From contig JANYBJ010000147.1 in the NCBI GenBank assembly GCA_025360845.1, forward strand, positions 1 to 43,383: a DNA stretch of 43,383 nt. The letters are read 5' to 3'. A program made the translations under genes and the position numbers. The stretch is from a bacterium. Its GTDB lineage: Bacteria; Verrucomicrobiota; Kiritimatiellia; RFP12; UBA1067. Positions 25,389-42,200 of this stretch are shown piece by piece; position 1 is the stretch's first letter, and every line of letters starts with the position of its first letter. The notes below the pieces were generated by a model. That model searched no databases, was not told the origin of the DNA, and worked only from the letters and a program-made list of their open reading frames with translations.

Positions 25389-25530
25389 ACGTGCTCCGTC
25401 ATTGAATGACAGTCAATTTACCCCATCCGCTTCCCCTATGCGACAGAAAAACGAATAAAGCCTTTCAGCCGCCCACAATTGTTAAAATAGTCTGTTTTTC
25501 TTACGCATCCCTTTTGCTAAAATGATTCGC
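25389..25530. promoter_or_regulatory. Divergent promoter region; leaderless-type promoter of the CDP-sugar operon
   Basis: AT-richer than its surroundings. On the plus strand an extended -10 box, TGC-TAAAAT (TG at 25515-25516, TAAAAT 25518-25523), lies 7 bases before the ATG at 25531, the same spacing as at ispF. The -35 position (TTTTTC, 17 bp upstream) is weak, as is usual with extended -10 promoters. Near the epimerase start an inverted repeat, ATTGA-7 bp-TCAAT, could be an operator. No clear terminator is present. Confidence 0.5.
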
Positions 25531-26376
25531 ATGAGTGAATTCTGTAAGTCGCAGCGGCCCCTTGCGATGCCCCCGTTGATGATCCTGTGTGGTGGCAAGG
25601 GAACTCGTCTGCGCGACGTGACCGAACTGTTGCCAAAACCCATGGTGCCGATCGGCGAACAGCCGATCGTGTGGCACATCATGCGAAGCTATGCGGCCTT
25701 CGGCGTCACGCGCTTTATCCTGTGCCTAGGCTATAAACGCGACTGTTTTGTCGATTATTTCCTGAACTTTCACGCCTATGCGTCAGACATCACGGTGCAG
25801 CTCGGTAAACACGGGGCTATCACCTATCACGACCGAGCGGTCGAGGCTGAGTGGGAGGTGACTCTGGCGAATACGGGGATCGACACCATGACAGGCGGCC
25901 GCGTTGCCCTTGCCTCCAAGCATCTTAAAGAGACCGACACAACTTTTTTTCTGACCTATGGTGACGCCGTCTCGGATATCGACATCGGCGCCTCGCTGCA
26001 AGCTCACCGCCGCAGCGGCAAACTGATCACTGTCGCGGCGGTTCATCCCGAAGGCCGTTTCGGCGAAATGCGGCTGAGCGACGGGTGTGTGCACGGTTTT
26101 GAAGAGAAGCCTGCCCGCGTGGAGGGGTACATCAACGGCGGCTTCATGGTGATTGAAAAAGCATTTGTTCCCCGCTATCTGGCAGCGGACAAAGACCTGT
26201 TTTTCGAGCAGGCCCCCATGCGACAGGCCATGGCCGAAAACCAGATGGCGGCTTTCGTCCACGACGGTTTCTGGCAGTGCATGGATACGCCGCGCGAATA
26301 TCAGTTGCTGAACGACCTGTGGAAAAGCGGGTCCGCACCGTGGTCGGCCCGATGGCAGCCGGAAGGTGAGTCATGA
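25531..26376 (+). CDS. rfbF: Glucose-1-phosphate cytidylyltransferase
   Basis: 281 aa from ATG 25531. An ATG at 25522 lies inside the -10 box and the next one is at 25567. It forms CDP-glucose from glucose-1-phosphate and CTP, the first step of CDP-3,6-dideoxyhexose synthesis. Marks are the nucleotidyltransferase loop LCGGKGTRLRDVTE with KPM, IGEQPIVWHIM, YGDAVSDIDI (metal-binding Asp), and EGYINGGFMVIE. The residues before MPPLMILCGG are not conserved, so the true start could be 25567. The gene overlaps rfbG by 4 bp (ATGA) and begins an operon of eleven genes. Confidence 0.92.
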   Translation: MSEFCKSQRPLAMPPLMILCGGKGTRLRDVTELLPKPMVPIGEQPIVWHIMRSYAAFGVTRFILCLGYKRDCFVDYFLNFHAYASDITVQLGKHGAITYHDRAVEAEWEVTLANTGIDTMTGGRVALASKHLKETDTTFFLTYGDAVSDIDIGASLQAHRRSGKLITVAAVHPEGRFGEMRLSDGCVHGFEEKPARVEGYINGGFMVIEKAFVPRYLAADKDLFFEQAPMRQAMAENQMAAFVHDGFWQCMDTPREYQLLNDLWKSGSAPWSARWQPEGES

Positions 26377-27455
26377 GTTTCTCGGTGTTCCGCGGCAAAC
26401 GCATTTTTCTGACCGGCCACACGGGCTTCAAGGGCTCGTGGCTGGCGTTGTGGCTCCACCGTCTCGGCGCTGACGTATACGGCTTTTCCCTGCCGCCGCC
26501 GACACTCCCCTCAAACTACGCGCTTTCGAACGTGCGCGAACGCTTGGCTGGCGAGACGGTCGGCGACATCCGCGACCGTAAGGTGATGCGCGACGCGTTG
26601 GGGGCGTTCGATCCCGATGTTGTCTTTCACCTGGCGGCCCAGCCGCTGGTGCGCGACAGTTACACCTTGCCTTTCGAGACGTTCGAGGTGAATGTGATGG
26701 GCACGGCCAGCGTTCTGGAAGCCGTGCGCGACAGGCACCGGCCCTGTGCGGTGGTCTGTGTCACAACCGACAAGTGCTACGAGAACCGCGAACAGATCTG
26801 GGGATACCGCGAATGCGATGCCATGGGAGGGCACGATCCCTACAGCGCCAGCAAAGGCGCGGCGGAGATCCTGATCGCCTCTTACCGCCGCTCGTTCTTC
26901 AGCCCGTCCCGGCTGAGTGAGCACGGCGTGCAATTGGCCTCGGCCCGCGCGGGCAATGTGATCGGCGGCGGCGACTGGGCCCGCGACCGCATCGTGACGG
27001 ACATGGTCGCGGCGCTTACGTCAAACCGCGCCGCGCCTGTGCGCAACCCGCACGCGGTCCGCCCGTGGCAACATGTGCTGGAGCCCCTCTCCGGGTATCT
27101 GACGCTCGCCGCGGCGATGCTGGAGCGGCCCGGTGCTAAATGGTGCGAGGGGTGGAACTTCGGGCCTGTTTCGGGCACCGAGCTGCCGGTTGGAAAACTG
27201 GCGGACGCTTTTGTAAAGGCGTGGGGGGCGGGCGCGTGGGTGGACCAGAGCTCTCCCGAACAGCCCCACGAGGCTTCCATCCTCCGCCTGAGCATTGAGA
27301 AGGCCGGATGGGAGCTCGGCTGGCACCCGCGCTGGAGCAGCGAGGAGATGGTGGAAAAGACCGCGCGGTGGTACCGGAGTGTGCTGTGTGAAGGGGGCGA
27401 TGCCCGCACGGCGTGCGAGGCCGATCTTGAAGCGTATGGAGACCGTTTAGCATGA
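26373..27455 (+). CDS. rfbG: CDP-glucose 4,6-dehydratase
   Basis: 360 aa SDR. It converts CDP-glucose to CDP-4-keto-6-deoxyglucose using bound NAD. The NAD loop and family signature is LTGHTGFKGSWLALWL (residues about 13-28). HLAAQPLVRDSY, VVCVTTDKCYENRE and the Tyr-x3-Lys in DPYSASKGAAE follow. ARAGNVIGGGDWA is specific for CDP-glucose dehydratases. It overlaps both neighbours by 4 bp, so rfbFGH are translationally coupled. Confidence 0.95.
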   Translation: MSFSVFRGKRIFLTGHTGFKGSWLALWLHRLGADVYGFSLPPPTLPSNYALSNVRERLAGETVGDIRDRKVMRDALGAFDPDVVFHLAAQPLVRDSYTLPFETFEVNVMGTASVLEAVRDRHRPCAVVCVTTDKCYENREQIWGYRECDAMGGHDPYSASKGAAEILIASYRRSFFSPSRLSEHGVQLASARAGNVIGGGDWARDRIVTDMVAALTSNRAAPVRNPHAVRPWQHVLEPLSGYLTLAAAMLERPGAKWCEGWNFGPVSGTELPVGKLADAFVKAWGAGAWVDQSSPEQPHEASILRLSIEKAGWELGWHPRWSSEEMVEKTARWYRSVLCEGGDARTACEADLEAYGDRLA

Positions 27456-28774
27456 CGTCACAGGAACAGTTGAAAGCGGAGATTCTTGCGAAGGTTGAGG
27501 AGTATTACCGTCAGGTTCACGCACCGGCGCAGCGCGCGCCCTTCGTTCCCGGAAAAAACCGCGTCAATTATGCCGGCCGCGTCTTTGATCAGGAGGAGTT
27601 GGTGAACCTCGTCGATTCTTCGCTTGATTTCTGGCTGACGGCGGGGCGCTATGCCGAAGATTTCAGCGGAAAGCTTGAGGATTATTATAACGTATCGGAT
27701 GTGATCCTGACCAATTCCGGATCTTCTTCCAACCTGCTGGCCGTTTCAGCGCTGACGGCTGAATCGCTGGGCTCCCGCCGGCTTGCTCCGGGTGACGAGG
27801 TCATTACGGTCGCCGCCGGCTTTCCCGCAACGGTCGCGCCGGTTGTCCAGAACCGGTTGATCCCTGTTTTTGTTGATGTGGAAATCGGCACCTACAACAT
27901 CGACGTGTCCAAGCTGGAGGAGGCCCGTTCGCCGAAGACCAAAGCCGTTTTTATCGCCCACACGCTGGGCAATCCCTTCAATCTTGACGCCGTATGCGCG
28001 TTTGCCGAAAAGCACGGCCTGTGGCTGATTGAAGACAACTGCGATGCCCTGGGCAGCCGTTACCGCGGAAAACTGACCGGAACCTTTGGCCATATTGCGA
28101 CCGGCTCCTTTTACCCCGCGCATCACATTACCACCGGAGAGGGCGGCTGCGTGATCACCGACGATCCGGAGCTTGCCCGGATCATCAGAAGCTTCCGCGA
28201 CTGGGGGCGCGACTGCTACTGCGAGGGCGGCGAAAGCAACACCTGCGGCTGCCGGTTTACCAAGCAGTACGGGACGCTCCCGAAGGGTTATGACCATAAA
28301 TATGTCTACTCGCATATCGGCTACAACATGAAGATGACCGATATGCAGGCCGCGATCGGCGCCGCCCAGATGGAGAAGCTGCAAGCGTTTACGGAGCGCC
28401 GCAAAGAGAACTTCCGGCTGATTACGGAGGGCCTGAGGGATCTGGATCAGTTCTTCATCCTTCCGCACGCCACCGAACACAGCGATCCGTCGTGGTTTGC
28501 CTATATTCTGACGCTTCGGGAAAACGCACCCTTCAGCCGGGTTGAACTGGCGCAGCACCTCGACGAAAACCTGATTGAAACGCGCGGTCTGTTCGCAGGC
28601 AACCTGCTTCGCCAGCCCGGTTATATGATGATCGAACACCGCGTCGTCGGCGGTCTTGAGAATACCGACTATATCATGAACCACACCCTGTTCATGGGCG
28701 TCTTCCCCGGTCTGACCCAGGCGAAGATCAACTATGTCACGGAAAAGATCCGCGACTTTGCGAAGAGGTTCTGA
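27452..28774 (+). CDS. rfbH: CDP-4-keto-6-deoxyglucose 3-dehydrase (E1)
   Basis: 440 aa. A PMP-dependent, iron-sulfur member of the DegT/aminotransferase fold that removes the C3 hydroxyl of CDP-4-keto-6-deoxyglucose. The usual PLP lysine is replaced by histidine in SFYPAHHITTGEGG (His224/His225), as in Yersinia E1. The [2Fe-2S] ligands follow the family rule exactly: C197, 57 residues, C255, 1 residue, C257, 7 residues, C265. It needs electrons from a reductase (E3), and the next gene starts 2 bp later. The full set of active-site residues suggests a working enzyme. Confidence 0.95.
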   Translation: MTSQEQLKAEILAKVEEYYRQVHAPAQRAPFVPGKNRVNYAGRVFDQEELVNLVDSSLDFWLTAGRYAEDFSGKLEDYYNVSDVILTNSGSSSNLLAVSALTAESLGSRRLAPGDEVITVAAGFPATVAPVVQNRLIPVFVDVEIGTYNIDVSKLEEARSPKTKAVFIAHTLGNPFNLDAVCAFAEKHGLWLIEDNCDALGSRYRGKLTGTFGHIATGSFYPAHHITTGEGGCVITDDPELARIIRSFRDWGRDCYCEGGESNTCGCRFTKQYGTLPKGYDHKYVYSHIGYNMKMTDMQAAIGAAQMEKLQAFTERRKENFRLITEGLRDLDQFFILPHATEHSDPSWFAYILTLRENAPFSRVELAQHLDENLIETRGLFAGNLLRQPGYMMIEHRVVGGLENTDYIMNHTLFMGVFPGLTQAKINYVTEKIRDFAKRF

Positions 28775-28776
28775 TC

Positions 28777-29484
28777 ATGGCCACTCCCGTGAAGATTAAA
28801 GCGACCGTCGAGGAGGTCGTGAAGCACACCGGTTCGGTGGTGAGTTATCGTTTCGTCCCTCAGGGACGCGTGCCGAAATTCCATGCCGGGCAGTTCTTAC
28901 ACCTTGCGCTGGACGAATACTATCCCGACAGGCAGTGGCCCGAGTCGCGCGTTTTTTCGATTGCCTCTTCTCCCTCCGAAAGGGCGAAGGAACTGGCTGT
29001 AACGATTTCGGTGAAGGGCCGATATACCGGGCGGATTTTCAACACCTTGGAAGAAGGGTCCGAGTGCTGGCTGAAACTCCCCTACGGCGAATTTCTTTTC
29101 CCCTCTGACCGGCGGCTCATCCTGATAGCGGGCGGAGTGGGAATCACACCCTACCTGTCGTTGCTCAAACAGATGCTTGAGGAAAAGTCGGGGCAGACCG
29201 TTACACTCTGCTACGGCGTCCGCTCGGCAGAGCACTACCTGTTCGGGGAGCTGCTCGGCCGCTGCGAGGCCGAACTGCCCAACTTCGGGAAGACGGTCTA
29301 TTGCGAAGACGGCTCGCTGCCCGGCAACAGGGGGACACTGGACATCGCTGCGATACATGCCGCTGCGCCGGAAGGTTCGCTCTTCTATCTTTCGGGTCCA
29401 CCGGCTATGATTGACACCTTCAAGAATCGTTTGCGCGACCTCGGCGTGGAGAGCGAGCGCATTCGTTTGGACGATTGGGAATAA
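28777..29484 (+). CDS. E3-like FAD/NAD(P)H reductase lacking the ferredoxin domain
   Basis: 235 aa ferredoxin-NADP-reductase-fold protein. The FAD motif is R58-V-F-S (SRVFSIASSP), the NAD(P) loop is GGVGITP (119-125), and the C-terminal motif is SGPPAMIDTF. It should reduce RfbH (E1) during 3-deoxygenation. The classical E3 (AscD/DdhD, about 330 aa) has a plant-type [2Fe-2S] ferredoxin domain at the N terminus. Here no such domain or cysteine cluster exists, and no ferredoxin gene lies nearby. Electrons may pass directly from flavin to the E1 iron-sulfur cluster, or through a ferredoxin encoded elsewhere. It starts 2 bp after rfbH, which makes the partnership likely. Confidence 0.85.
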   Translation: MATPVKIKATVEEVVKHTGSVVSYRFVPQGRVPKFHAGQFLHLALDEYYPDRQWPESRVFSIASSPSERAKELAVTISVKGRYTGRIFNTLEEGSECWLKLPYGEFLFPSDRRLILIAGGVGITPYLSLLKQMLEEKSGQTVTLCYGVRSAEHYLFGELLGRCEAELPNFGKTVYCEDGSLPGNRGTLDIAAIHAAAPEGSLFYLSGPPAMIDTFKNRLRDLGVESERIRLDDWE

Positions 29485-29534
29485 GAAAAACGGGAAACGA
29501 TGAACCTCTTCCGGTCGGTGGAGAATAACGGTAC

Positions 29535-30422
29535 ATGACTCCGGTGAAAACAAAAGTCGCCATTATCGGCACCGGCAACATCGGTGCTGACCTGCTTGTC
29601 AAAATTCGCCGGAGTCCGCTTCTGGAGTGCGCATTGTTTATGGGTCGCAACCTCGACTCGCCGGGCATGCGGTTCGCTGCAAGCCTAGGGACTCCCATTT
29701 CTGATCAATCGATCAGCGCACTTGCCGAAGATCCCGACTGTTGCGAGATCGTTTTCGATGCGACCTCCGCCAGCATCCATCTGCAGCATGCGCCGGTTCT
29801 GAAGGCTTTGGGAAAATTCGCAATTGACCTGACGCCGTCGAAAACCGGCTGCATGTGCATTCCCGTCATCAATGCGGAGGCCTGTTTAGAAGAGCCGAAC
29901 GTCAATCTTGTGACCTGTGGAGGCCAGGCGACGGTACCTCTGGCGTATGCGATCAGCCAGGTTCACCCGGACGTGCAGTACATCGAGGTCGTTGCCAGCA
30001 TCGCGTCGCGGTCGGCCGGTCCCGGCACACGCGCAAATATCGACGAGTTCACGCAGACGACCAAAGACGCGATCCTGCATTTCACCGGCGTCCCAAAAGC
30101 GAAAACGATCATCATCCTGAATCCGGCTGAGCCGCCCATCCTCATGCGCAACACGATCTACGCCCTCATTCCCAATCCCGACATGGAGGCGCTCCGACTC
30201 TCGGTCAAGCAGATGGAGAAACGCATCCAAAAATATGTGCCGGGCTATCAGGTGATCATGGAACCCGTTTTTGAAAACGGACGGGTCACCACCATGGTTC
30301 AGGTGACCGGGTTGGGCGATTACCTTCCCCCGTACTCGGGAAATCTGGATATCATCACCTGCGCGGCTGTCCATATCGCCGAGATGTTCGCGCGTAAGAA
30401 ACAGGAGAGCGCACATGAATAA
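29535..30422 (+). CDS. Acetaldehyde dehydrogenase (acylating), DmpF/MhpF type
   Basis: 295 aa. It interconverts acetaldehyde (or another short aldehyde), CoA and NAD with acyl-CoA and NADH. The N-terminal Rossmann loop is IIGTGNIGADLL. The catalytic cysteine is Cys128 in NLVTCGGQATVPL, the position of the thioester-forming Cys of DmpF. GPGTRANIDEFTQTT and NPAEPPILMRNT are family segments. It overlaps the aldolase gene by 8 bp, as these two do in catechol meta-cleavage operons. Here no catabolic gene is present and the pair is buried inside a CDP-sugar operon, so a biosynthetic, reverse role (acetyl-CoA to acetaldehyde) is proposed. A 50-bp gap with GGAG separates it from the reductase gene. 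Confidence 0.9.
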   Translation: MTPVKTKVAIIGTGNIGADLLVKIRRSPLLECALFMGRNLDSPGMRFAASLGTPISDQSISALAEDPDCCEIVFDATSASIHLQHAPVLKALGKFAIDLTPSKTGCMCIPVINAEACLEEPNVNLVTCGGQATVPLAYAISQVHPDVQYIEVVASIASRSAGPGTRANIDEFTQTTKDAILHFTGVPKAKTIIILNPAEPPILMRNTIYALIPNPDMEALRLSVKQMEKRIQKYVPGYQVIMEPVFENGRVTTMVQVTGLGDYLPPYSGNLDIITCAAVHIAEMFARKKQESAHE

Positions 30423-31461
30423 GCTTCGGTTTTTCGATGCCACATTGCGCGACGGCTCTCATGCGAATGCCCATCAGATCACCACCGACTGCATCAGCAG
30501 TTATTGCGCGGCGATCGACGACGCTGGACTTTACACGGTTGTTGTGGGCCACGGGAACGGGCTGGGGGCGAGCTCGCTTCAAGTCGGCCTTTCGCTGCAC
30601 ACGGAAGAGGAGATGCTTGCCGCGGCCAAGCCCTATCTGAAAAAAACCCGCCTGGGCGTTTATCTGATACCGGGATTCGGCACGATTCATGATCATATCG
30701 CGCCGGCCATCGCCCAAGGTGTCCAGCTCGTGAAAGTCGGCTGCCACTGCACCGAAGCCGATGTCACCAAGCAGCACATCGAGTATGCCAGAGCGCATGA
30801 CGTCGAAGCGTACGGTGTTCTGATGATGTCCCACATGGCCGAGCCGGAGCGGCTTTTGCAAGAAGCTAAGAAAATGGAGTCTTACGGCGCACTCGGGGTG
30901 ATTCTCATGGATTCCGCCGGAGCCCTGTTGCCCAAGCAGGTCGCCGAACGCGTGAAGCGGATCGTCTCCGAATGCGGCCTCCTTGTCGGTTTTCACGCGC
31001 ACAACAACATGAGCCTCGCCGTTGCCAACACGCTTGCCGCGCTCGACGCGGGGGCTGCCATTGTTGATGCGACCCTGCGCGGTTTCGGTGCCGGTGCGGG
31101 CAACTGCCAGTTGGAAGTCCTCTGCGGCATCCTTCAGAAAATGAGTGTCGAGACCGGACTGGATTTTTACCGCTTGCTGGATGTGTGTGACACGATCGTC
31201 GCCGCGCGTTTGCAGAAGAAGCCTTCGGAAATCACTTCCCTCAGCCTAGTGGGCGGACTTTCGGGTGTCTTCAGCGCGTTCACCGAACACATCAAGAAGG
31301 CGGCCGTCCGCTTCAACGTTGACCCGCGAGACATCTTTGTCGAACTCGGCAAGCGGAAGGTTGTGGGCGGCCAGGAAGACATGATCGTCGATGTGGCCAT
31401 GAACCTGGCTCAGCGGACACGCAAGGACGATATCTCGTTTCTGATGGAATCACTGCTTTAG
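30415..31461 (+). CDS. 4-hydroxy-2-oxovalerate aldolase, DmpG/MhpE type
   Basis: 348 aa, full length. A divalent-metal class II pyruvate aldolase of the HMGL-like barrel family. Marks are DATLRDGSHANAHQIT (catalytic Arg-Asp and His), the metal-binding pair in GFHAHNNMSLAVANT, and TLRGFGAGAGNCQLE. The C-terminal communication domain used for contact and channeling with the dehydrogenase is present (about 285-345). AGGAG lies 7 bp before the ATG. In degradation it splits 4-hydroxy-2-oxovalerate to pyruvate and acetaldehyde. In this operon the likely direction is the aldol addition that builds this 2-oxoacid for the following ThDP enzyme. Confidence 0.92.
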   Translation: MNKLRFFDATLRDGSHANAHQITTDCISSYCAAIDDAGLYTVVVGHGNGLGASSLQVGLSLHTEEEMLAAAKPYLKKTRLGVYLIPGFGTIHDHIAPAIAQGVQLVKVGCHCTEADVTKQHIEYARAHDVEAYGVLMMSHMAEPERLLQEAKKMESYGALGVILMDSAGALLPKQVAERVKRIVSECGLLVGFHAHNNMSLAVANTLAALDAGAAIVDATLRGFGAGAGNCQLEVLCGILQKMSVETGLDFYRLLDVCDTIVAARLQKKPSEITSLSLVGGLSGVFSAFTEHIKKAAVRFNVDPRDIFVELGKRKVVGGQEDMIVDVAMNLAQRTRKDDISFLMESLL

Positions 31462-31484
31462 TTCTCTAACTCTCGAGGTTTCAT

Positions 31485-33278
31485 ATGATGGTCTCCGACT
31501 ATATCTTCGACTTCCTGCAGCGCAAAGGTGTTGACACGGCCTTTATGGTTTCGGGCGGACAGGCCATGTTTCTGGTGGACTCGCTCGGACGCCATCCCGC
31601 AATCCGGACCATTTGCACGCACCATGAGCAGTCCGCTGGAATGGCGGCCGACGCCTATTCCCGCATCACGGGAAAGCTCGGCGTGGCCCTCGTCACGGCA
31701 GGTCCTGGAAGCGTGAACATCGTCAACGGGCTGGTTGGAGGGTGGACCGATTCGGCTCCCATGATGGTCATCTCCGGACAGTCCGCCCTGTCTTGCGTCA
31801 ATTATCAGGCAACGAGCGGTATCCGGCAATATGGAATACAGGGCATCTATATTCAGCCTTTCGTGGAAAAGGCGACCAAGTTTTTTGTGACGGTCGACGA
31901 CCCCGCGAAAATCCAATTCTACATGGAGAAGGCCTACTATCTTGCCATGAATGGACGCCCCGGTCCGGTTTGGATCGATGTGCCTCTTGATGTGCAACGC
32001 ATGGAAGTTCCGGAAAAGCTCCTATACCCCTACCACCCGGAAAAGAGCGCCCTTACACCCGCTTGCCCACATGACAAGCTTCTGAAAACGTGGGAGTTTC
32101 TCAAGAGTGCCAAGCGCCCGCTTGTCATCGCCGGACAAGGCGTGCGGATTGCCAAGGCCGACCTCGAGTTGCGGAATTTCATTGAAGCCTTGAATATCCC
32201 GGTGATCACCACCCGGCTCGGCATTGACCTCATCGAATCCGAGCATCCCCTCTACGTCGGGCGTCCGGGCAACTATGGCGAACGCGCAGCCAATTTCGCG
32301 GTTCAGAATGCCGATTTCATTCTGGCCGTTGGGAGCCGACTCTCAACCGCCTCCGTGGGTCACGACTCCGCACGTTTCGGAAAGCACGCGGTCAAGGTCG
32401 TGGTCGATGTCGACGCTAAAGAACTCGACAAGCCCGGCGTTCCCATCGACCTTAAGATCAACGGTGATGCGAAAGCCTTTCTTGTGTCTTTGCTTTCTGT
32501 GGCCGACGCCGCCCGGATGCAGCACACCTCTGCCTGGGTTGCCCTTTGTAACAGGTGGAAGAAGGACTATCCCGTTGTCCAGCCGGAATACAAAGATGAA
32601 AAGCCCGTCAACTCCTACTATTTCACCGAGCGGCTGTGCGAGAAGACCGGAAGCGGTGATGTCGTGCTTGTCGACACGGGTTCCTGTTTCCATGTTGCCT
32701 GTCAGGCGTGGAAGGTCAAGAAAGGTCAGCGCTTCCTGACGACGGGCGGACTGTCCTCGATGGGCTACTGGGTCGCGGGAATTGGAGCGTGCGCTGCCAA
32801 CGAATATCGCAGAACGATCGTCATCACCGGGGACGGCAGCCTCCAGATGAACCTTCAGGAGTTGGCGACAATCAAGCTCCACAATCTGCCGATCAAGGTC
32901 ATCATCTTCAACAATAACGGCTATCTGCTGATCCGGCAGACGCAGCGTAATTTCATGGAAGGCCGGCTCTTTGGCGAAGGCCCCGAAAGCGGCGTCTGGT
33001 GTCCCGACTCTCTGCGGATCGCCGAGGCCTACGGAATTAAAGGCGTGCGCATCGACTCGGTCGATGATCTGGATGCGAAGATCGACGAGGTTCTCGCGTA
33101 TGACGGCCCGGTTGTTTGTGATGTGATGACGCCCGAATGGCAACTGCTGATCCCGCGTGTTTCATCGGAAAAACTGCCGGACGGCAAACTCGTCTCCCGG
33201 AAATTCGAGGATATGTTTCCCTACCTTCCCGAAGATGAAATGAAGCTAAATATGATTGCAGATGACAATCAGCAATGA
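31485..33278 (+). CDS. ThDP-dependent enzyme, YerE/acetolactate-synthase-like
   Basis: 597 aa with the three-domain layout of acetolactate-synthase-type enzymes. The Pyr domain has the ThDP-activating Glu48 in HHEQSAGMAADAYSR and the ALS-like segment TAGPGSVNIVNGLVGGWTD. The middle domain covers about 200-345. The PP domain has the ThDP signature GDGSLQMNLQELATIKLHN ... NNNGY. YerE of Yersinia, an ALS relative, transfers a two-carbon unit from pyruvate to C4 of CDP-3,6-dideoxy-4-ketoglucose. The same acceptor is predicted to be made by the genes upstream here. A larger donor is suggested by the aldolase/dehydrogenase genes just before it. The stop overlaps the SDR start by 4 bp. True biosynthetic acetolactate synthase is unlikely since there is no ilvN or ilvC nearby. 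Confidence 0.88.
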   Translation: MMVSDYIFDFLQRKGVDTAFMVSGGQAMFLVDSLGRHPAIRTICTHHEQSAGMAADAYSRITGKLGVALVTAGPGSVNIVNGLVGGWTDSAPMMVISGQSALSCVNYQATSGIRQYGIQGIYIQPFVEKATKFFVTVDDPAKIQFYMEKAYYLAMNGRPGPVWIDVPLDVQRMEVPEKLLYPYHPEKSALTPACPHDKLLKTWEFLKSAKRPLVIAGQGVRIAKADLELRNFIEALNIPVITTRLGIDLIESEHPLYVGRPGNYGERAANFAVQNADFILAVGSRLSTASVGHDSARFGKHAVKVVVDVDAKELDKPGVPIDLKINGDAKAFLVSLLSVADAARMQHTSAWVALCNRWKKDYPVVQPEYKDEKPVNSYYFTERLCEKTGSGDVVLVDTGSCFHVACQAWKVKKGQRFLTTGGLSSMGYWVAGIGACAANEYRRTIVITGDGSLQMNLQELATIKLHNLPIKVIIFNNNGYLLIRQTQRNFMEGRLFGEGPESGVWCPDSLRIAEAYGIKGVRIDSVDDLDAKIDEVLAYDGPVVCDVMTPEWQLLIPRVSSEKLPDGKLVSRKFEDMFPYLPEDEMKLNMIADDNQQ

Positions 33279-34324
33279 ACAATGTCATTCTGACAGCGGA
33301 TGTTGAAGTGCTTGCCAACAGGTTGCCGTCTCTCTGCAAAGTGTTGGATAATAAGCGTTTTTTTCTAACAGGAGGCACAGGCTTTTTCGGCAAGTGGCTG
33401 CTACACAGCTTCCTCGGACTGCGCAATGCTTGCGGTCTCGATGTCGAGTTAACGGTCCTGTCGCGTGACCCTAAACACTTTCTCGACTCCAACCCGGACT
33501 TCTGCGGCCAGAACGGTTTGAAGTTTGTGGCCGGCGATGTCCGGACGTTTGAACTAACCACCCGGCAGCCTTTTGATTTCGTTATTCACGGCGCAACCGC
33601 GGCCAGCGCGCAACTTGAGCAGGAGCAGCCCGAGGAGATGTACTCTGTCATCACCGAGGGGACGCGGCACATCCTCGACTTCACGCGCCAATGCTCAGCC
33701 AAACGGATTCTTTTCATCAGTTCGGGCGCGGTCTATGGTCCCCAGCCCCCCACCCTTGACCAGCTTCCAGAAACGTACGAGGGCACCCCCGCGACGGCCT
33801 ATGGCAGAGGCAAGAAGGTCTCCGAGCAGCTGTGCCTCGAAGCTTCCTCCTCGGAGCTTTTTGACTGCGTCATCGCCAGGCCGTTCGCGTTCGTCGGCCC
33901 CTACCTGCCCTTGGACACGCACTTCGCGATAGGCAACTTCATCCAGGACTGCCTGGAAAGCCGCCCCATCGTCATCCGCGGCGACGGCACGCCGCTGCGC
34001 TCTTACCTTTACGCCGCAGACCTGGCGGAGTGGCTATGGACGATTCTGTTGCGCGGCCAGCGCTCGCAGGCCTATAATGTGGGCTCGAACTGTGCGATTT
34101 CCATTCGCGACCTGGCCCATCTCGTGAGGGAGTGCGCCGACACGTCGAACGAAATTGTCGTCCTAGGAAAAGAGGCCGAGGGCGCTTTGCCCGCCCGCTA
34201 TGTGCCATCGGTGGACCGCGCGCAAAAGGAACTGGCACTCTGTCAACGCATCTCTTTGCCAGAGGCCATTCGTCGGACACTCCTCTGGCATCGGGACATG
34301 CAAGTCAAAGGTTCATGCAGATGA
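33275..34324 (+). CDS. Extended SDR (NAD(P)-dependent sugar reductase/epimerase)
   Basis: 349 aa. The nucleotide loop is GGTGFFGKW (33-41), preceded by an unusual 30-residue N-terminal helix region. ISSGAVYGPQ supplies the Ser and AYGRGKKVSEQ the Tyr-x3-Lys catalytic pair. RSYLYAADLAEWLW and AYNVGS are typical of nucleotide-sugar SDRs. In the yersiniose pathway an SDR (YerF) reduces the ketone of the newly attached side chain, and that is the best guess for this gene. A C4 reductase/CDP-abequose-synthase-like function is the alternative. It overlaps both neighbours by 4 bp. Confidence 0.85.
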   Translation: MNNVILTADVEVLANRLPSLCKVLDNKRFFLTGGTGFFGKWLLHSFLGLRNACGLDVELTVLSRDPKHFLDSNPDFCGQNGLKFVAGDVRTFELTTRQPFDFVIHGATAASAQLEQEQPEEMYSVITEGTRHILDFTRQCSAKRILFISSGAVYGPQPPTLDQLPETYEGTPATAYGRGKKVSEQLCLEASSSELFDCVIARPFAFVGPYLPLDTHFAIGNFIQDCLESRPIVIRGDGTPLRSYLYAADLAEWLWTILLRGQRSQAYNVGSNCAISIRDLAHLVRECADTSNEIVVLGKEAEGALPARYVPSVDRAQKELALCQRISLPEAIRRTLLWHRDMQVKGSCR

Positions 34325-35250
34325 AAAAGATCAGCGTTGCTTCCGGCTGCTACAATGAAGAAGACAATCTCCGGGAATTCTACGACCGGATCGTGGCAAC
34401 CTTCCGCCAGCTGCCCGGCTACACCTATGAGATCATCCTTGCGGACAACTGCTCGACGGACCGCAGCCGGGAGATCCTGCGCGAGATCGCCGCAAGAGAC
34501 CCGCAGTTCAAGGTCATCCTGAACGCGAATAATTTCGGGCATATCCGCTCACCTTTTAACGCCCTGCTGCAGACCTCCGGCGACGCCGTCGTCGTGCTCT
34601 GCTCCGACTTGCAGGAGCCGCCGGAAATGATTCTCGATTTTGTCAAGCAGTGGGAAGCCGGATACCAAGTGGTCTGCGGAGTGAAGCCCAAAAGCCGCGA
34701 AAACCCTTTGATGTTTCAAGTCCGCCGCCTCTACTACTGGCTGCTGGCCAGCTGCTCGGAAACCTCGCAAATCCAGAACTTCACGGGTTTTGGCCTCTAC
34801 GACCGGAAAGTCATTAACGCCATCAGGCAGTTCAACGAGCCCTACCCCTATTTCCGCGGGCTGGTCAGCGAGATCGGGTTCAAGCGGGCCGAAGTCCCCT
34901 TTATCCAAGCCGCCCGGCAGCACGGTAAGACGAAAAACAATTTCTTCACGCTATACGACATGGCCATGATCGGCTTTGTAAACCACACCAAGCTGCCGCT
35001 GCGGCTCGCCGCTTTCGCCGGATTCTTCCTCGCCATCCTGAGCCTCTTTGTGGCGATCGGCTACCTCATCTACAAGCTCCTTTATTGGCAAACCTTCAAC
35101 CTGGGACTTGCGCCCATCGTGATCGGCCTCTTCTTCTTTGCCTCTGTCCAGCTGCTCTTCATCGGCGTCATTGGTGAATATGTCGGTGCCATCTGGACCC
35201 AGGTTAAAAACAAGCCGCTGGTTATCGAGGACGAGCGCATCAATTTCTGA
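34321..35250 (+). CDS. GT2 polyprenyl-phosphate glycosyltransferase, GtrB/DPM1-like
   Basis: 309 aa from ATG 34321 (ATGA overlap with the SDR). The frame is open to 34132, but that part overlaps the SDR gene. It has a GT-A domain with ASGCYNEEDNL, LADNCSTDRS and the metal-binding LCSDLQEPPE. Two C-terminal membrane helices follow (LAAFAGFFLAILSLFVAIGY; APIVIGLFFFASVQLLFIGV). Proteins of this shape transfer a sugar from its nucleotide to undecaprenyl phosphate on the cytoplasmic side. The lipid-linked sugar is then flipped by a GtrA protein and used by a GT-C enzyme, and both of these are encoded just downstream. Confidence 0.9.
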   Translation: MKKISVASGCYNEEDNLREFYDRIVATFRQLPGYTYEIILADNCSTDRSREILREIAARDPQFKVILNANNFGHIRSPFNALLQTSGDAVVVLCSDLQEPPEMILDFVKQWEAGYQVVCGVKPKSRENPLMFQVRRLYYWLLASCSETSQIQNFTGFGLYDRKVINAIRQFNEPYPYFRGLVSEIGFKRAEVPFIQAARQHGKTKNNFFTLYDMAMIGFVNHTKLPLRLAAFAGFFLAILSLFVAIGYLIYKLLYWQTFNLGLAPIVIGLFFFASVQLLFIGVIGEYVGAIWTQVKNKPLVIEDERINF

Positions 35251-35272: not shown

Positions 35273-37252
35273 ATGCGCACTTCACTTCGGTTTTTTCTGT
35301 CGCACTCAAATACGGCAAGGTTATTCTGGTGCCTTTGCCTGCTCTTGCTCATCGTCTTTACGCGATGGCCCTGGATCGACTGTGACGGCGGCGTTCCCTC
35401 GCTCAACGAGTACGGCTATTTTGTCACCGACGAAGGCTATTACACCGGCGGTGCAAAAGAAAAGCTTGTGTCCGGCCATTTTATCGACGTTTCCCGCGGC
35501 GAGACCTACACCTATGCAATCTGCCCTGCGTTGCATCTGTTGACCTATGGCTCTTATTCGCTGTTTGGCCAATCGTCCTGGGGCCATCGCCTTTTTCCTT
35601 TCACCATCAACACCTTCGCCTGGCTCATGATGTTCTGGGCACTTTCGCGAAGAACCCTTCCGTGGATCGTCTTTGTCTTATGTGCAGGAGTTCTCATGAC
35701 GCCTTTCGTCATAGAGTATGAACGTACCGCCAGCAACGATGTCTTGATGGCATCCGTTCTCATGATCGGCTTCTGCCTGACGCAGCGAAAGGGACTATTG
35801 TTCACCGTCTTGGGCGGGTGCGTCTTCGGTCTCGGCTTCTTCGTCAAGAAATCGATCATCGTATTGTTCAGCCTGGGTGTCAGCATATCACTGATGAAGC
35901 GCACCCGCGAACGGCGTTGGCTGCACGGCTTCATGCTGGCCGTGTCTTTTCTTGCCGTTGCCGGCCTCGTCCAACTGACCGTAAGATGGATAGTCGCGGG
36001 CGATGCCGCAGCGCAACACGTCACCGTCAACCGCCTGTTGGAGATCTCCAACGCACACTACGCGCTGCCCAACCCATTCGATCTGCAAAACACGTTCAAG
36101 GGACTCTCGTCGTTTCCCAGAATGCCGACCGACACTCGCCTCGGAGTCTTGGTTGTTCTCTTCTTCCTGTTTCCCTCCCTGCTGTTTCTCCGCCGCCTGA
36201 GCCAATCGCCTTTCCGATGGAACGGGAAAATGCTGTTCTATCTCAGTTTTCCGCTCTATACCTGCAGTATCCTCATCATGAACGGCTATTATGCGCACTA
36301 CTTTATCCCGCTGATCGTTTTCATCCCTTTTCTTTGGCTGGAGGCCCGAAAAGACCTGCGCAGTTCCCCGGACCGCCACACCTGGCCCAAGCTTTGCCTT
36401 TTGGGTGCGGCGCTCGCAGTCACAGTCTTGCTCTGCAACTCCATCGCCGTTTCAAAGAGCGACCTTCCGAACCTCGCCCCCTTCATCAGCCAGGCCTATA
36501 ATTTGCCGCAAAAAATCCTCTGGCTCCTGAACGGAAAATACATTCTGTTGACCGCGCTCCTTCTCTCCGCCTTCGTTTTGCTTGCCAGATTCAACAAGCC
36601 CCAAGTGATCCCGACCCTTTGCATCCTGGCGGCTGCCTTGCTGACTGCGAATCTCTGCTTCACCCTTTTCCCGCTTGTCCAAGCCGCTCCCTATGCACCG
36701 GCACTGAAGCCCTCGCAACAGGTTGCGGTGCTCCTCCAGGTGACCTCCGTCCTGATTCTGTTTCTTGTCTGGCAAGCCCCCCGCGTTTTGGTGGTAGGAA
36801 AACGCTGGGTCGCCGCTTTTGCCGTGTTTCTTCTCTTTGGGTTCGTGCAAAATCCGAACTGGCGGGCGAGCCTGTCTGAACTTCCCAAGCGAAACACGCT
36901 GCAGAAGCAGGCCGTTCAGGAATTAAAGAAGCTTCTGCCGGCCAATGCCGTTGTCACCGGCGAGCGCGGCCCGCAACTGCTGGCGACCTTGCCCGCGAAG
37001 GCTGTGCCGTCAAGTGGCGACACCATCCCCTTGTTGCAGACCCTTCACCAAGCGGATACCAACACCGCCTTCTACTGCATTGTCGACACACAGCAGGCTT
37101 ATGTCTGGCAATATTACAAGAATAACCCTGACACGATTTCAATGGAGCTCATTCACAAGATGAAGCTGCCGGGTTTCGGAACGGGTGATCCCATCGACGT
37201 TTATCTCGCTAAACTCACCTTAACGCAAAAAGGCCCCCGTGCGACGCCCTGA
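35273..37252 (+). CDS. GT-C membrane glycosyltransferase (GT39/ArnT-like)
   Basis: 659 aa from ATG 35273; an upstream in-frame start at 35138 would overlap the GT2 gene. About eleven to twelve hydrophobic helices are present. The first periplasmic loop has D53-E54 (VTDEGYYTGGAKE), the acidic pair used for catalysis in GT-C enzymes. A soluble C-terminal part begins at about 560 and contains VVTGERGPQLLATLP. It is likely to transfer a polyprenyl-phosphate-linked sugar onto a glycan or lipid in the periplasm. The specificity cannot be read. It lies 22 bp after the GT2 gene and overlaps the following gene by 14 bp. Confidence 0.75.
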   Translation: MRTSLRFFLSHSNTARLFWCLCLLLLIVFTRWPWIDCDGGVPSLNEYGYFVTDEGYYTGGAKEKLVSGHFIDVSRGETYTYAICPALHLLTYGSYSLFGQSSWGHRLFPFTINTFAWLMMFWALSRRTLPWIVFVLCAGVLMTPFVIEYERTASNDVLMASVLMIGFCLTQRKGLLFTVLGGCVFGLGFFVKKSIIVLFSLGVSISLMKRTRERRWLHGFMLAVSFLAVAGLVQLTVRWIVAGDAAAQHVTVNRLLEISNAHYALPNPFDLQNTFKGLSSFPRMPTDTRLGVLVVLFFLFPSLLFLRRLSQSPFRWNGKMLFYLSFPLYTCSILIMNGYYAHYFIPLIVFIPFLWLEARKDLRSSPDRHTWPKLCLLGAALAVTVLLCNSIAVSKSDLPNLAPFISQAYNLPQKILWLLNGKYILLTALLLSAFVLLARFNKPQVIPTLCILAAALLTANLCFTLFPLVQAAPYAPALKPSQQVAVLLQVTSVLILFLVWQAPRVLVVGKRWVAAFAVFLLFGFVQNPNWRASLSELPKRNTLQKQAVQELKKLLPANAVVTGERGPQLLATLPAKAVPSSGDTIPLLQTLHQADTNTAFYCIVDTQQAYVWQYYKNNPDTISMELIHKMKLPGFGTGDPIDVYLAKLTLTQKGPRATP

Positions 37253-39260
37253 TGAACTATTCACCTTTTGCCGGAACCGGTTGACGGCGCAGCAGAGCCA
37301 ATTCTTTCGCTATCTTCTGGTGGGCGGCTGGAATACCGTGTTCGGTATGGCCGTCTACGCCGGGCTCTATCAATGGCTCGGCGGCAGCGTCCACTATCTG
37401 ATTCTGCTGATCCCTTCGAACTTCCTGGCCGTCACAAACGCATACGTCTGTTACAGGCTGTTTGTCTTTAGAACGCGCGGCAACATCCTGAAAGAGTATT
37501 TCCGTTGCTATGTCGTCTATGGCGGCATGATGCTTGCCGGAGCCGTTCTGCTCTATGTACTCGTCGACTGGCTCGGAGTCCCACCTGCCGCCGCCAACTG
37601 CATATGTGTCGCCCTTACGACGATTGCCAGTTACTTCGGACATCGGAATTTTTCGTTCAAACCGGGTCCTCCAAATGACGGCCGAATCAACTTGCTCCAT
37701 TCTTTAGACGCAAAGCCCGTTCTCATATTAGGCATCGCCTCACTCCTGACGCTCCTCTGCCATCTCACGACCATTAAATATTATCCGCTTTCATGGCTGG
37801 ATGAAGTCGACATCAGGGAAATCGGAAGATTTTCAATCTATAATCAGAATCCTGCATGGTCGTTGCACCTGACTCCAACAGTGCCAGCCTCGACACCAAC
37901 CCCTTTCATCCATTATCTCGGCGGGTTCATCCAAGAAACATTGTATCGAATAACCGGAAACTTCATTGTGCCAAGATGTTTCGCGCTTGGAGGACTCCTC
38001 TTTGCTGTTGTCTTGTTCTATATCTGGTTGCGAAAAAAGGGATTCTCGCCGTGGATTACCCTTTTTTCTGCTCTATTATTGTTGTCGGATACTAACGTCA
38101 CCGTAGGTGTACATTGGTACCGACTGGACATGTGGGTCATGGGCCTTACTTTCCTCAACGCCTGGCTTGTCTTGCGCTGTTCAGGGAAAACGGAATCAAC
38201 GCAACTTAAGACCCTATTTGCCGTTGGCGGCATAATGGTTTTCCAAATGATTTTTTGGTTGACCGCCATCATCCAGTGGCCACTTGTTCTTGCCGAAGTT
38301 CTGACACTTGCCGTTGCTGAAAAATGGACCCTCCGCCGTTATCTTGGCGCAATGTTATCTGGCTTTAGCGGCATGTTAAGTGTTGGTTTTATTTTGCTGA
38401 TTCCTCTTTACGGTGAGTTAAGCAACACCTTCGCCTATTTTCTCACTCAAACAGAAATCGGCTGCACCATCAGCCGATTTAATCCTTCAGCATCTGTTAG
38501 TTCGACAAGCGTGCTTCTACAGAGCGCTCTTGAACGGCTGCTACATTTCATCAAACTGATCATGCGAACGCCTTTCATCTGGGTGGGGGCCACAATCGGC
38601 TGTTGTTTCTTCTGGCGGAAGCATCGCTTCCACTTTTACGCTTTGCTGTTCAGTGCCATGCTGGTGATGATGACTCAAGTCTACCATGCGCGAGTGAATT
38701 ATCTGACGCCACTTGTGTTCTTATTCTTCTCAGAAGGCTTATATCAATGGCTAACTCGCAACAGTCGACTCCGCTATCTTGCCGCAGCCTTTCTGACCAT
38801 TGCTTTAGCTTATAGTTTTCTGCTGTCTGTCATCGGTTTGAACTATTTCGCGAGACCTCTTTCTAAAGGGAACACGTATGATGCGCTTCTAGAAAAAATG
38901 TCATCCACTGTCGGATGCGGTCCGATAAAAATATACACGTTCACGTACGACATTTACCATGTGGGTCGAAAGCTAGGATGGCATATGTTCTCCTTTCTTC
39001 CAGGCAAACCTGAATCCATCTTTATCAGTCAAGTCTCAAAGCCTCTCCTCGCCGATTTAGACTATATCGTCGTCGGCGATGATTATGAGCTTAATACGGA
39101 CCAAAATACTTTTCTCAATACCCAAGGGTTCCATCCTTGGAAACGCGTCGAGTTGCCTAAAGATGAGCCCGTTGGCATGACTGCACTCTTCCGCCCCGTC
39201 ATTTATGCACGCGGGTACCCATGCTTCACGATCTGGAAGAAGGCAACTCGTTTCCAATAG
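37239..39260 (+). CDS. GtrA flippase fused to a GT-C glycosyltransferase
   Basis: 673 aa starting with GTG 37239, needed to keep the whole GtrA domain; AAAGG lies just upstream. Residues about 20-145 are a four-helix GtrA domain (QFFRYLLVGGWNTVFGMAVY ... TIASYFGHRNFSFKPG), which flips polyprenyl-phosphate sugars. From about 165 a GT-C part begins, with the acidic loop WLDEVDIREIG and eight to ten more helices (for example MLAGAVLLYVLVDW and RYLAAAFLTIALAYSFLLSV). Flippase and transferase are normally separate genes (gtrA and gtrS). The latter two thirds are visibly AT-richer than the operon upstream, which hints at a different origin. It is the last gene of the operon and ends 10 bp from the convergent giant gene. 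Confidence 0.8.
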   Translation: MRRPDELFTFCRNRLTAQQSQFFRYLLVGGWNTVFGMAVYAGLYQWLGGSVHYLILLIPSNFLAVTNAYVCYRLFVFRTRGNILKEYFRCYVVYGGMMLAGAVLLYVLVDWLGVPPAAANCICVALTTIASYFGHRNFSFKPGPPNDGRINLLHSLDAKPVLILGIASLLTLLCHLTTIKYYPLSWLDEVDIREIGRFSIYNQNPAWSLHLTPTVPASTPTPFIHYLGGFIQETLYRITGNFIVPRCFALGGLLFAVVLFYIWLRKKGFSPWITLFSALLLLSDTNVTVGVHWYRLDMWVMGLTFLNAWLVLRCSGKTESTQLKTLFAVGGIMVFQMIFWLTAIIQWPLVLAEVLTLAVAEKWTLRRYLGAMLSGFSGMLSVGFILLIPLYGELSNTFAYFLTQTEIGCTISRFNPSASVSSTSVLLQSALERLLHFIKLIMRTPFIWVGATIGCCFFWRKHRFHFYALLFSAMLVMMTQVYHARVNYLTPLVFLFFSEGLYQWLTRNSRLRYLAAAFLTIALAYSFLLSVIGLNYFARPLSKGNTYDALLEKMSSTVGCGPIKIYTFTYDIYHVGRKLGWHMFSFLPGKPESIFISQVSKPLLADLDYIVVGDDYELNTDQNTFLNTQGFHPWKRVELPKDEPVGMTALFRPVIYARGYPCFTIWKKATRFQ

Positions 39261-39270
39261 CAAAAATGGG

Positions 39271-42200
39271 TCAGGGATCGATCTCCTGTGAGCGAATCAG
39301 GAAGTCGTACGACTGGTTCCGTGCGTTCACTTTCTGCGAAGCGGGCAGCCCCTCTTTGTCTGACCAGAGGAAAAATCCGCGGCCCTCCACGCCTGCCGCC
39401 GAGGGCATCTTAACCGGCGTCAAGATCCCGTCAAAGCGGATGCTCTTGGAGGTGTGCAGCGAGCCGTAGTCGAACCAGGCTTTAAAGGTTCCGCTGAACA
39501 GGCCGGTGGGGCGGGTCAGCGTGAGCGTCAGCGCCTCCGCATTCGCGTTGACCGTATAGTTCCAGCCGCCGCCGGGCATCGCGACCGGAGCCCCGGCCAC
39601 AGGTGCCGTGATGCCCGTCATCGCGCCGGACGAGTTGAGTTTAACCGACAGCGGCAGCGTGTCCGGATTCCACCAGACAGATGCGTACCGGTTCGTCCCG
39701 ATATTAAGCTTGGGATCGGGCGCGACAGGCTCCGTGCCGACCGCCAGCGTTTTGTTCCGATAGTAATCGTACAGGTTGCCGACCGTGTCATACCAGCCGC
39801 CCGTGAGGCCAAGCCTCCGGTTGAACCCGTTCAAGGACCGGCTCTCCCACGTCATCGTATCCAGCATCGCGAGGCACGTCACCGGCCCGCTCTCTCGGTC
39901 GAACATCGCGAAGCCGTAGAAGCAGCCGCCTTGATAGGCGGTCGGTGAGGTGTACAGAACCGTGAACAGCGTATGGGCGTCAACGATGATCAGCGGGCTG
40001 CTCAGCGAAACCGCCGTGCCGTCCGCCAGCTTGCCGACGCTGGTGACCTTGCCGTTCGCCACCGTGAACGCCAGATAGCCGCTGCCGTAAGTCTCAGACC
40101 CGTCCTCAACCTCTCCCAGCTCATTCTGAACGGTGGCGGTGTAATACCCGTTGAGGCCCGCGACCGTGGTCCGCATGTCCGCGTCACCGCTCACGTCGCG
40201 GTACAGCAGCAGCGACGACGACTGCGTATCGGGATCATCGTCGAAGGCGACGCCCAGCAGCGCCGGCCCCTCGGCAACCACCTCATGTCGGACCCGCACA
40301 GTCAGAGGCAGCTTCCACCTGGAGCTGAGCGACGCCACTTTCGCGACGAAGGTGAAATCGCCGTCCGGACTTCCTGTCAGGTACGAGTCTGCGCTGAATG
40401 AATAGTTAGTTCCCTCTGCGGAAAGCTTGCCGGTGATCCGCCCTGGCGTTGTCACCGTCATCGTCGCAATCCCTTTTCCGAATTTGTGTTCGTCTGCCAA
40501 ATAGCCGTTGAACACGCCGGTCGCCCACTTCGGCAGCGGCGCGACGGTGATCGTGAAGGAGGCTGTCACCGGCGCGCTCCGGTTGCCCGCATTCGTCACC
40601 GAGACCTTCACCTGCGAGGGTTTTTCGAGCGCCGAGGGCGTGGTCGGCACGCCGCCGATGGTTCTGGTTGCCGCATCGTACGTGAGGCCCGCCGGCAGAC
40701 CGGTCACCGTGACCTGCGGCAGCGAGTCGGACGTGATGTCGAGAACCCGCTCGAAGCGCACGCCCGCCATCGCCTGCTGCGCCCCCGGATTCGCCACCGT
40801 AGGCGGGGCGATGTTGGCAGTGAGACCAAAGAAGGCCTGGCAAAGCATGACGCCTCCTGATGCTCCCGCGGCCGCCTCTGCTCCGTTCACCTGGCGCGTC
40901 GGAGCCTGCGACCCGTTCTCCCAGCGCAGCAGCGTCCAGCCCTTGGTAGGCGTGGCGCTGACATTAACCGCCTTGCCTGGCAGACAATACCCGCCGCCCG
41001 TCACGCGCCCGCCCTCCGGCGGCTGAGGCACGCTCGCCACAAAGACGCCTTTGTTCGGCACGGTCCCCGCATCATCGTCAGCGATCACGACCGCGGCGAC
41101 CTGCGGCTCTCCGAGCGCTCCCCCTGTCGCCTGGCTCAGCTCAACGTAGAAGCGTTCCGGCCCCTCGACCAGGCGGTCCTGCTTGATCTGGATCATGACG
41201 GTTTTGGGTCCGATTTCGCCCGCCGCCCACAGCAGCGTGGCCGGCTTGGCCAAGGCCACGTAATCCGCGCTCGCCGTGGCCGAGCCGGGCAGCAAAATCA
41301 GATTCACCGAGCACGCCACGTCCGGCAGGCCGCCGTTGACGGTCACAGCGACCGTCCCGTCCGCCTCGGAACAGGGGAACATCTCGGCGGCAAACGCCAC
41401 GCCGCTGAAGAGCGCCGTGACCGAAAGGGCCGCTTCAACGCCCGCATCCGTCCGGGGATTGTCGGTGCGTCCGTCGCTCCACCTCACAAACCGGTACCCC
41501 GCATTCGGAACAGCGCCGACAGGTGTGCCGGAGTCGCCCTGCGTCACCGTCTGATCCACCGCCCCCGTCACCGCTCCGTAGGTTCCGGCCGCATAGGTCA
41601 ACCTGTACCGGTTGAGGAACACCGACGTCAGAGTCACGTCGTTGCTCGGCATGGTGACCGTTGTTGAAGGCAAGTAGGCGAAGAAATTGGTCCCGAGGTC
41701 CGTCCCTTCAGGCGACACCGTCCAGCCAATAAAAATCTGATTTGTTCCTGGCGTCTCCGCCGTTACGGGTGCGGTCGCGCCTGCGGCAAAGTCGCCACCG
41801 CCGGGTCCGCCGATGACCGCCAAACGATATGTAGATGACACCGGAGGCGGCAAGGAACCGGACGCACGGAAGCCTAAGACGTGGTTGCGGTAAGTCGGGG
41901 GGGCCGCGCCGCGGAAAGCGGACCGGCAATAATCGGCGGTGTCGAGCCAACTGCCGCCGCGATTTAAACGGGCCGACCCTGAGGCCAAACCATTCGGATC
42001 ACTCACCGCATCGGGATACGTCCCGTACCAATCCAGACACCACTCGAACACATTGCCGTGCATGTCATAGAGTCCCCATGCGTTCGGCGGGTATGAACCG
42101 ACCTTGGCCGTGCCCGCAGTCGTGTCGCCTCCTTGCGTGCAACCGCTTGCATTGCTATACAGATATCGTGCCACCTCAGAAAGGGAAGCGTCATTGCTCG

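Follow-up and report, generated by a model that had tools for sequence, protein, structure and literature searches.

A candidate operon for an erwiniose-type CDP-sugar with a four-carbon branch in a Kiritimatiellia bacterium

In the YerE pathway to yersiniose A, a reductase acts after the step catalyzed by the thiamine diphosphate (ThDP) enzyme. According to the accessible part of PMC12247030, YerE itself uses pyruvate to add two carbons to cytidine diphosphate (CDP)-3,6-dideoxy-4-ketoglucose, and ErwE of Pectobacterium atrosepticum takes 4-hydroxy-2-oxoacids, not pyruvate, for erwiniose; ErwE also accepts 4-hydroxy-2-oxohexanoate, and its proof in vitro used a substrate analogue. The same part of this source describes MMAR_2332, a YerE-like enzyme for caryophyllose in Mycobacterium marinum, as sharing the preference of ErwE for hydroxy-ketoacid donors. 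The branch of caryophyllose has six carbons. Here, we analyze a stretch of 43,383 nucleotides from a bacterium of the Kiritimatiellia (Verrucomicrobiota; assembly GCA_025360845.1, contig JANYBJ010000147.1; hereafter the window) with an operon in which DmpF and DmpG, best known as a catabolic enzyme pair, stand between genes for a CDP-dideoxysugar and a ThDP enzyme related to YerE and ErwE. Based on gene content, homology, active-site residues, linkage, and phylogeny, we consider it probable (roughly 0.74) that this operon directs the synthesis of a 3,6-dideoxyhexose that is linked to CDP and carries a branch of four carbons at C4, a rare sugar of the erwiniose type, which is known from a plant-rotting bacterium.

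Open reading frames (ORFs) and family profile searches delineate a single tight operon at 25522-34324 with the order RfbF-RfbG-RfbH-E3-like reductase-DmpF-DmpG-ThDP enzyme-short-chain dehydrogenase/reductase (SDR) and intergenic gaps, from RfbF to SDR, of -4, -4, 2, 50, -8, 23, and -4 bp. This gene order and the 8-bp overlap of DmpF (29535-30422) with DmpG (30415-31461) are as an earlier note on this DNA had claimed. The features are listed below with percent identities to loci of relatives, which we number with L (L001 is the closest):

25522..26376, + strand: RfbF/DdhA, glucose-1-phosphate cytidylyltransferase (TIGR02623, 274 bits, slightly below the cut-off of 300; 90% identity to L001)
26373..27455, + strand: RfbG/DdhB, CDP-glucose 4,6-dehydratase (TIGR02622, 467 bits, cut-off 278)
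27452..28774, + strand: RfbH/DdhC, CDP-4-keto-6-deoxyglucose 3-dehydrase, E1 (NF011936, 698 bits, cut-off 423; 79% to L027, 60% to L001)
28777..29484, + strand: E3-like flavin reductase without 2Fe-2S domain (PF00175, no Fer2)
29535..30422, + strand: DmpF, acylating acetaldehyde dehydrogenase, acetyl-CoA to acetaldehyde (TIGR03215, 395 bits, cut-off 282; CGGQAT motif aligned with 7z3s)
30415..31461, + strand: DmpG, 4-hydroxy-2-oxovalerate aldolase of a non-catabolic subfamily (TIGR03217, 395 bits, cut-off 286; DmpG_comm domain)
30661..30663, + strand: codon of DmpG Tyr83, at the position of BphI Leu87 / DmpG Leu88 (from the alignment; codon placed by arithmetic)
31270..31272, + strand: codon of DmpG Phe286, at the position of BphI Tyr290 / DmpG Tyr291 (from the alignment; codon placed by arithmetic)
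31485..33278, + strand: YerE/ErwE/JanthE-like ThDP carboligase with GDG motif (TPP_enzyme N, M, and C domains; best solved relative 8rph, 410 bits; tree)
33275..34324, + strand: SDR, proposed to reduce the ketone of the new branch (PF01370; 55-58% to the SDR of L027 and L038, which carry another donor module)

In the pathway that we propose, RfbF, RfbG, and RfbH together with the E3-like reductase would form CDP-3,6-dideoxy-4-ketoglucose, and DmpF would convert acetyl-CoA to acetaldehyde and hand it to DmpG for aldol condensation with pyruvate, giving 4-hydroxy-2-oxopentanoate, most likely as the 4R enantiomer. The ThDP enzyme would then decarboxylate this acid and transfer a 3-hydroxybutanoyl unit onto the C4 ketone, and the SDR would reduce the new branch ketone. 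The acceptor and the use of a ThDP enzyme would be shared with YerE, but YerE uses pyruvate, adds two carbons, and has no need of DmpFG. The likeness to the ErwE pathway comprises the CDP-3,6-dideoxy-4-ketoglucose acceptor, a YerE-like ThDP enzyme, and a hydroxy-ketoacid donor (accessible part of PMC12247030) as well as DmpF-DmpG in what is likely the matching locus; however, the ThDP enzyme of the window belongs to another clade, no HpaI aldolase was found in the window, and the E3-like reductase is devoid of a 2Fe-2S domain. The chemistry at C4 had been outlined in the earlier note, and it has gained support from DmpG-ThDP linkage at 16 other loci, the shared phylogeny of ThDP enzymes and donor genes, a likely erwiniose locus, and the donor specificity of ErwE. 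The claim that no such pathway had been characterized does not hold for its key step, that of the ThDP enzyme, as ErwE and MMAR_2332 are published (accessible part of PMC12247030), so that the novelty of the pathway is reduced.

The ThDP enzyme has three TPP domains and scores 369 bits against a cut-off of 538 for acetolactate synthase (ALS), far under it, so that it is not an ordinary ALS. Among solved structures, the closest is 8rph from Janthinobacterium, which we take to be JanthE (410 bits), ahead of the best (plant) ALS with ca. 250 bits and PpYerE (5ahk) with 229 bits. JanthE accepts 4-hydroxy-2-oxovalerate with benzaldehyde (accessible part of PMC12188165) and differs in carrying a CDG motif in place of the GDG motif of the window. 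That the acceptor is a CDP-deoxysugar ketone is suggested by the observed linkage to RfbFGH; as would suit an ErwE-type enzyme, the protein is encoded beside these genes and a source of 4-hydroxy-2-oxoacid. Its relatives were sampled by a search seeded with the window's own protein, which biases the sample to its kin, and 80 of 357 matches in named genomes were kept.

DmpG (at least 250 bits) lies near the ThDP gene at 13 of these 80 loci (L001-L008, L011, L029, L032, L036, and L054), including all eight top-scoring relatives (57-88% identity), in which the two genes adjoin. With L116, L117, and L119, this makes 16 DmpG-ThDP loci besides the window, of which 12 have RfbF, 12 RfbG, and 11 RfbH. 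The possibility that DmpFG-ThDP clusters would occur broadly without CDP-dideoxysugar genes, considered at the outset, is therefore not what is seen; they mostly come with them. L005 and L006 come from a single organism, as short contigs that start at DmpG and leave DmpF out of view; RfbH is found elsewhere in its genome. The same holds for RfbH of L029 and L032 (in two adjacent pieces for L032), whose own stretches are without it, while in L007 RfbH is matched partially where the contig ends, and the genome of L007 gave no match at 1e-60. In L029, DmpFG are on the strand opposite to the ThDP gene. L001 additionally encodes a PD-(D/E)XK protein beside RfbH (2301-2780), and another ThDP gene, ALS-like, precedes its DmpF (4215-5939).

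DmpG_comm occurs once in the genome to which the window belongs (5.17 Mb, 92% complete), in this operon, and in 8 of 288 genomes of the phylum, its own included. ThDP matches at 1e-60 were present in 53 of 59 related genomes (own included), mostly at 31-36% identity as expected for ordinary ALS, and none besides the window exceeded 41%; seven at 39-41% had no DmpFG in their flanks of up to 1.5 kb on each side.

DmpG of the window reaches the curated score, has the communication domain, and retains R17, D18, H21, H200, and H202 (DmpG numbering, alignment to 1nvm), which we take to be the catalytic and metal residues. Its AlphaFold2 model (pLDDT 80, but below 50 at 15-19, 47-58, 89-91, and 337-348, and therefore used for fold only) has 1nvm as top fold match (TM 0.83). 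It thus resembles DmpFG, BphIJ, and MhpEF in fold, catalytic residues, and domain content but departs from the catabolic (4S) Leu/Tyr type, with Tyr83 for BphI Leu87 and Phe286 for BphI Tyr290, and in its biosynthetic setting. In the alignment, all 17 ThDP-linked DmpG have Tyr, Phe, or His at the first and Phe or Val at the second position. Four further DmpG of the window's phylum (L135-L138) share this change, giving 20 of 20 ThDP-linked proteins plus L135, which is counted apart as no ThDP link was seen; the start of a ThDP gene adjoins DmpG in L136-L138 and an SDR in L135-L137. More distant proteins with Phe and His at the two positions (L139-L141, 31-35% identity) are excluded from these counts.

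Leu and Tyr are kept in 28 of 31 comparators. A first set of 16 (three PDB chains, E. coli MhpE, and 12 plasmid genes from 60 listed of 282 found) includes 13 of this type; of the other three, one is part of a ketosynthase cluster, one belongs to an ATP-grasp/aminotransferase cluster, and one has a further TPP gene nearby. Among 394 sampled genomes of a single order, 17 have DmpG_comm; 15 of these are Leu/Tyr with DmpF alone and no ThDP enzyme or SDR in the 3.2 kb fetched, and the remaining two (G222 and G190) are sugar loci that were included in the counts above. A DmpG tree splits 13 Leu/Tyr proteins from 20 others with 100/100 support (later rows are not in the tree). As a side observation, DmpFG of the biosynthetic residue type are found outside sugar settings in a ketosynthase/acyl carrier protein cluster (L123:1590-4503) and, on a symbiotic plasmid, close to a different TPP enzyme (L134:1596-3502).

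BphI is strictly 4S, loses stereocontrol upon Y290F, and accepts only the 4R acid when engineered to L87N/Y290F or L87W/Y290F, as reported in the accessible part of PMC3962088. Because these same two positions flip BphI from 4S to 4R, we predict by analogy that DmpG of the window makes (4R)-4-hydroxy-2-oxopentanoate. Erwiniose is presumably 3,6,8-trideoxy-4-C-(R-1-hydroxyethyl)-D-gulo-octose, which by our own working would need a 4R donor; a literature search on part of this name returned nothing. The caryophyllose branch is named D-altro-1,3,4,5-tetrahydroxyhexyl in the part of the literature accessible to us, which by our own working gives the same sense as 4R at the aldol carbon.

DmpG could instead use another aldehyde, such as propanal from propionyl-CoA or a hydroxyaldehyde, to build a longer branch towards the caryophyllose type, in line with the ErwE-like donor preference of MMAR_2332 and with the 4-hydroxy-2-oxohexanoate that ErwE accepts (both from the accessible part of PMC12247030). 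We regard this as unlikely: DmpF exceeds the acetaldehyde dehydrogenase cut-off, and no source of another aldehyde is apparent among the eight operon proteins scanned. Exchange of BphI Leu89 for Ala admits long aldehydes (accessible part of PMC3962088), but this position is Ile in the window and Ile or Val in the 17 aligned DmpG, so that nothing points to a pocket enlarged to hold them.

The reading of a four-carbon branch also draws on the way in which donor genes are distributed over the ThDP tree (93 proteins, quick LG+G4; JanthE and L118 are long branches). Apart from DmpFG, two other modules occur near the ThDP gene. A class I/II aminotransferase precedes it at 14 loci, directly in 13 and ca. 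3 kb before it in L026 (family search done on the L027 protein, L027:4379-5554; the other 13 assigned by similarity to it), and may make a 2-oxoacid donor from an amino acid. L010, L012, and L013 have a fused HMGL-type aldolase of ca. 573 aa, in which an N-terminal part resembling DmpG (26-28% identity) is followed by a long extension. With four labels (DmpFG, aminotransferase, fused aldolase, or none of these) on 79 rows, the 14 unlabelled rows not being counted, the tree requires 6 changes compared with a shuffled mean of 30.9, and 0 of 200 shuffles were as low, a clustering that near-copies in the sample aid. DmpFG appear in three places: the window clade (11 rows, starred, 99), a Pectobacterium-like clade comprising L116, L117, L029, and L054 (4 rows, starred, 100), and two Campylobacterota rows (L032 and L036) inside the aminotransferase clade. 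A single origin of DmpFG-ThDP for sugars is rejected on this tree, where no fewer than two changes are needed to account for the starred branches.

In L027 and L038, the E3-like reductase and SDR are kept with an aminotransferase and a different ThDP gene between them (RfbH is also present in L027, and L038 begins inside E3). The operon of the window is a mosaic of both versions, with RfbF, RfbG, DmpF, DmpG, and the ThDP enzyme 81-90% identical to L001 (SDR 69%) and RfbH and the E3-like reductase 79-80% identical to L027, an aminotransferase-version locus. Label clustering and mosaic structure suggest, at the level of sequence, that donor-supply genes and ThDP enzyme move as one functional unit. 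Our judgment is evenly balanced on the wider proposal that donor genes and a matched ThDP enzyme form an exchangeable cassette in a conserved RfbFGH-E3...SDR frame, the DmpG of the DmpFG version being a natural subfamily of inverted stereospecificity that would make (4R)-4-hydroxy-2-oxopentanoate. A single column, Pro125 (codon 31857-31859), passed our filter for donor-specificity residues of the ThDP enzyme; it is present in 16/17 DmpFG-linked, 1/14 aminotransferase, 2/3 fused-aldolase, and 2/45 other rows and is a lead to a possible donor-site residue.

These patterns bear on the idea that the ThDP enzyme uses pyruvate to build a two-carbon branch as in yersiniose, with DmpFG as an unrelated passenger, e.g., for acetaldehyde scavenging. 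YerE does so with the same acceptor (accessible part of PMC12247030), and 45 of the 79 labelled rows, among which the window is counted, have none of the three donor modules. Yet DmpFG and the ThDP gene move as a block more clustered than any of the 200 shuffles, in L027 and L038 the position of DmpFG is occupied by an aminotransferase, and DmpG is of the non-catabolic residue type, which makes this quite improbable. DmpFG as a fortuitously placed catabolic pair that cleaves its substrate to pyruvate and acetyl-CoA, in the manner of the classic meta-cleavage enzymes (in several comparators, MhpEF and plasmid DmpFG have hydratases or further genes of catabolism as neighbours), is rejected as most improbable given the single genomic DmpG_comm copy within a sugar operon, residues unlike 28 of 31 comparators, and no hydratase or dioxygenase among 13 window proteins searched for families (1-23 kb read as ORFs only).

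Support for an erwiniose-type product also comes from a locus likely to be that of erwiniose itself. In the sample of 394 genomes, six have a ThDP match at 1e-90, among them G190 (39% identity), whose genome encodes two PF03211 pectate lyases and whose genus we infer to be Pectobacterium. Among 25 genomes of this genus, three have the ThDP match and two (G190 and G469) the DmpFG arrangement. A lack of DmpFG in erwiniose producers, which the earlier note would have taken as a refutation, is not what is seen in this likely producer genus. The G190 locus comprises Wzc, an initiating sugar transferase, a DdhD-like reductase, RfbF, RfbG, RfbH, an HpaI aldolase, the ThDP enzyme, an SDR, DmpF, DmpG, another SDR, glycosyltransferases, a hexapeptide transferase, ManC, ManB, RmlD and RmlA (other strand), and GalF. 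These mannose and rhamnose precursor genes fit the P. atrosepticum polysaccharide of Gal, Man, Rha, erwiniose, and O-acetyl described in the accessible part of PMC8657720.

Several points weigh against our interpretation. As the Pectobacterium-like locus holds an HpaI aldolase, with none found in the window, the acid of that locus may be made by an aldolase other than DmpG; the G190 stretch fetched showed neither RmlB nor RmlC, and the identity of the genus is our own deduction. The two ThDP enzymes are 38-39% identical and fall into separate clades, so that the specificity of ErwE is carried over by context and the window enzyme may work like ErwE but is not its orthologue; PpYerE even scores below plant ALS against it (229 compared with ca. 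250 bits). For DmpG, the natural residue pairs (Tyr, Phe, or His with Phe or Val) differ from those engineered into BphI, and a single sugar-only clade is neither recovered nor rejected (p-AU 0.123). L123, L125, and L134 share the Leu87/Tyr290 change in non-sugar settings, so that it marks a biosynthetic clade and not sugar synthesis alone.

E3 reductases (DdhD/AscD) consist of an N-terminal 2Fe-2S domain plus FAD and NAD domains. The domain search confirmed the flavin-reductase NAD domain of the protein described as E3-like before but gave no Fer2 match, and we thus call it E3-like only; the reductase of the Pectobacterium-like locus (323 aa, L116), in contrast, has Fer2, FAD, and NAD domains. 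At 1e-8, the protein was matched only in L027 and L038 among the 80 loci (79-80% identity). As this short form without 2Fe-2S domain also occurs in their ThDP clusters, E1 may receive its electrons directly from a flavin reductase.

Downstream of the SDR, the surroundings are of the Gtr type, compared with the Wzc-linked genes of the Pectobacterium-like locus:

34315..35250, + strand: GT2, GtrB/DPMS-like polyprenyl-phosphate glycosyltransferase with a putative GtrB role (PF00535; 79% to L001; start chosen by us)
35273..37252, + strand: large ORF of 704 aa, putative membrane glycosyltransferase (no Pfam match; start chosen by us)
37239..39260, + strand: fusion of a GtrA flippase domain and a large C-terminal part, putatively a glycosyltransferase (PF04138; 72% and 68% to two adjacent pieces of L001)

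The L001 counterparts of the GT2 and the GtrA fusion suggest transfer via polyprenyl phosphate: the GtrB-like GT2 probably loads the sugar on this carrier, the GtrA domain flips it, and transfer takes place outside the membrane. The 704-aa ORF has no counterpart among the relatives' loci searched. Beyond the GtrA fusion, a large ORF on the opposite strand (39271-43104, -) has a translation resembling a formylglycine-type domain with repeat regions.

No report of DmpG in O-antigen loci was found among the papers listed from a collection of open-licence literature, and within that collection, which does not include the main ErwE papers, the donor-cassette pattern and the aldolase fingerprint appear new. 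Steitz 2022 is said to be on ErwE, Krug 2024 to be a survey of 200 enzymes, and Rombouts 2009 reportedly concerns caryophyllose in Mycobacterium marinum.

Should the branch be predictable from donor genes and two residues of the aldolase, sequence would open many unknown surface sugars to testing. From the genes of a true cassette, one could read how long the branch of an unseen surface sugar is and which configuration it has, and the aminotransferase version of the cassette would imply donors made from amino acids. A natural 4R subfamily of DmpG, whose proposed outcome is the one earlier engineered into BphI, would also be of use in synthesis and would account for the turn of a catabolic pair to sugar building.

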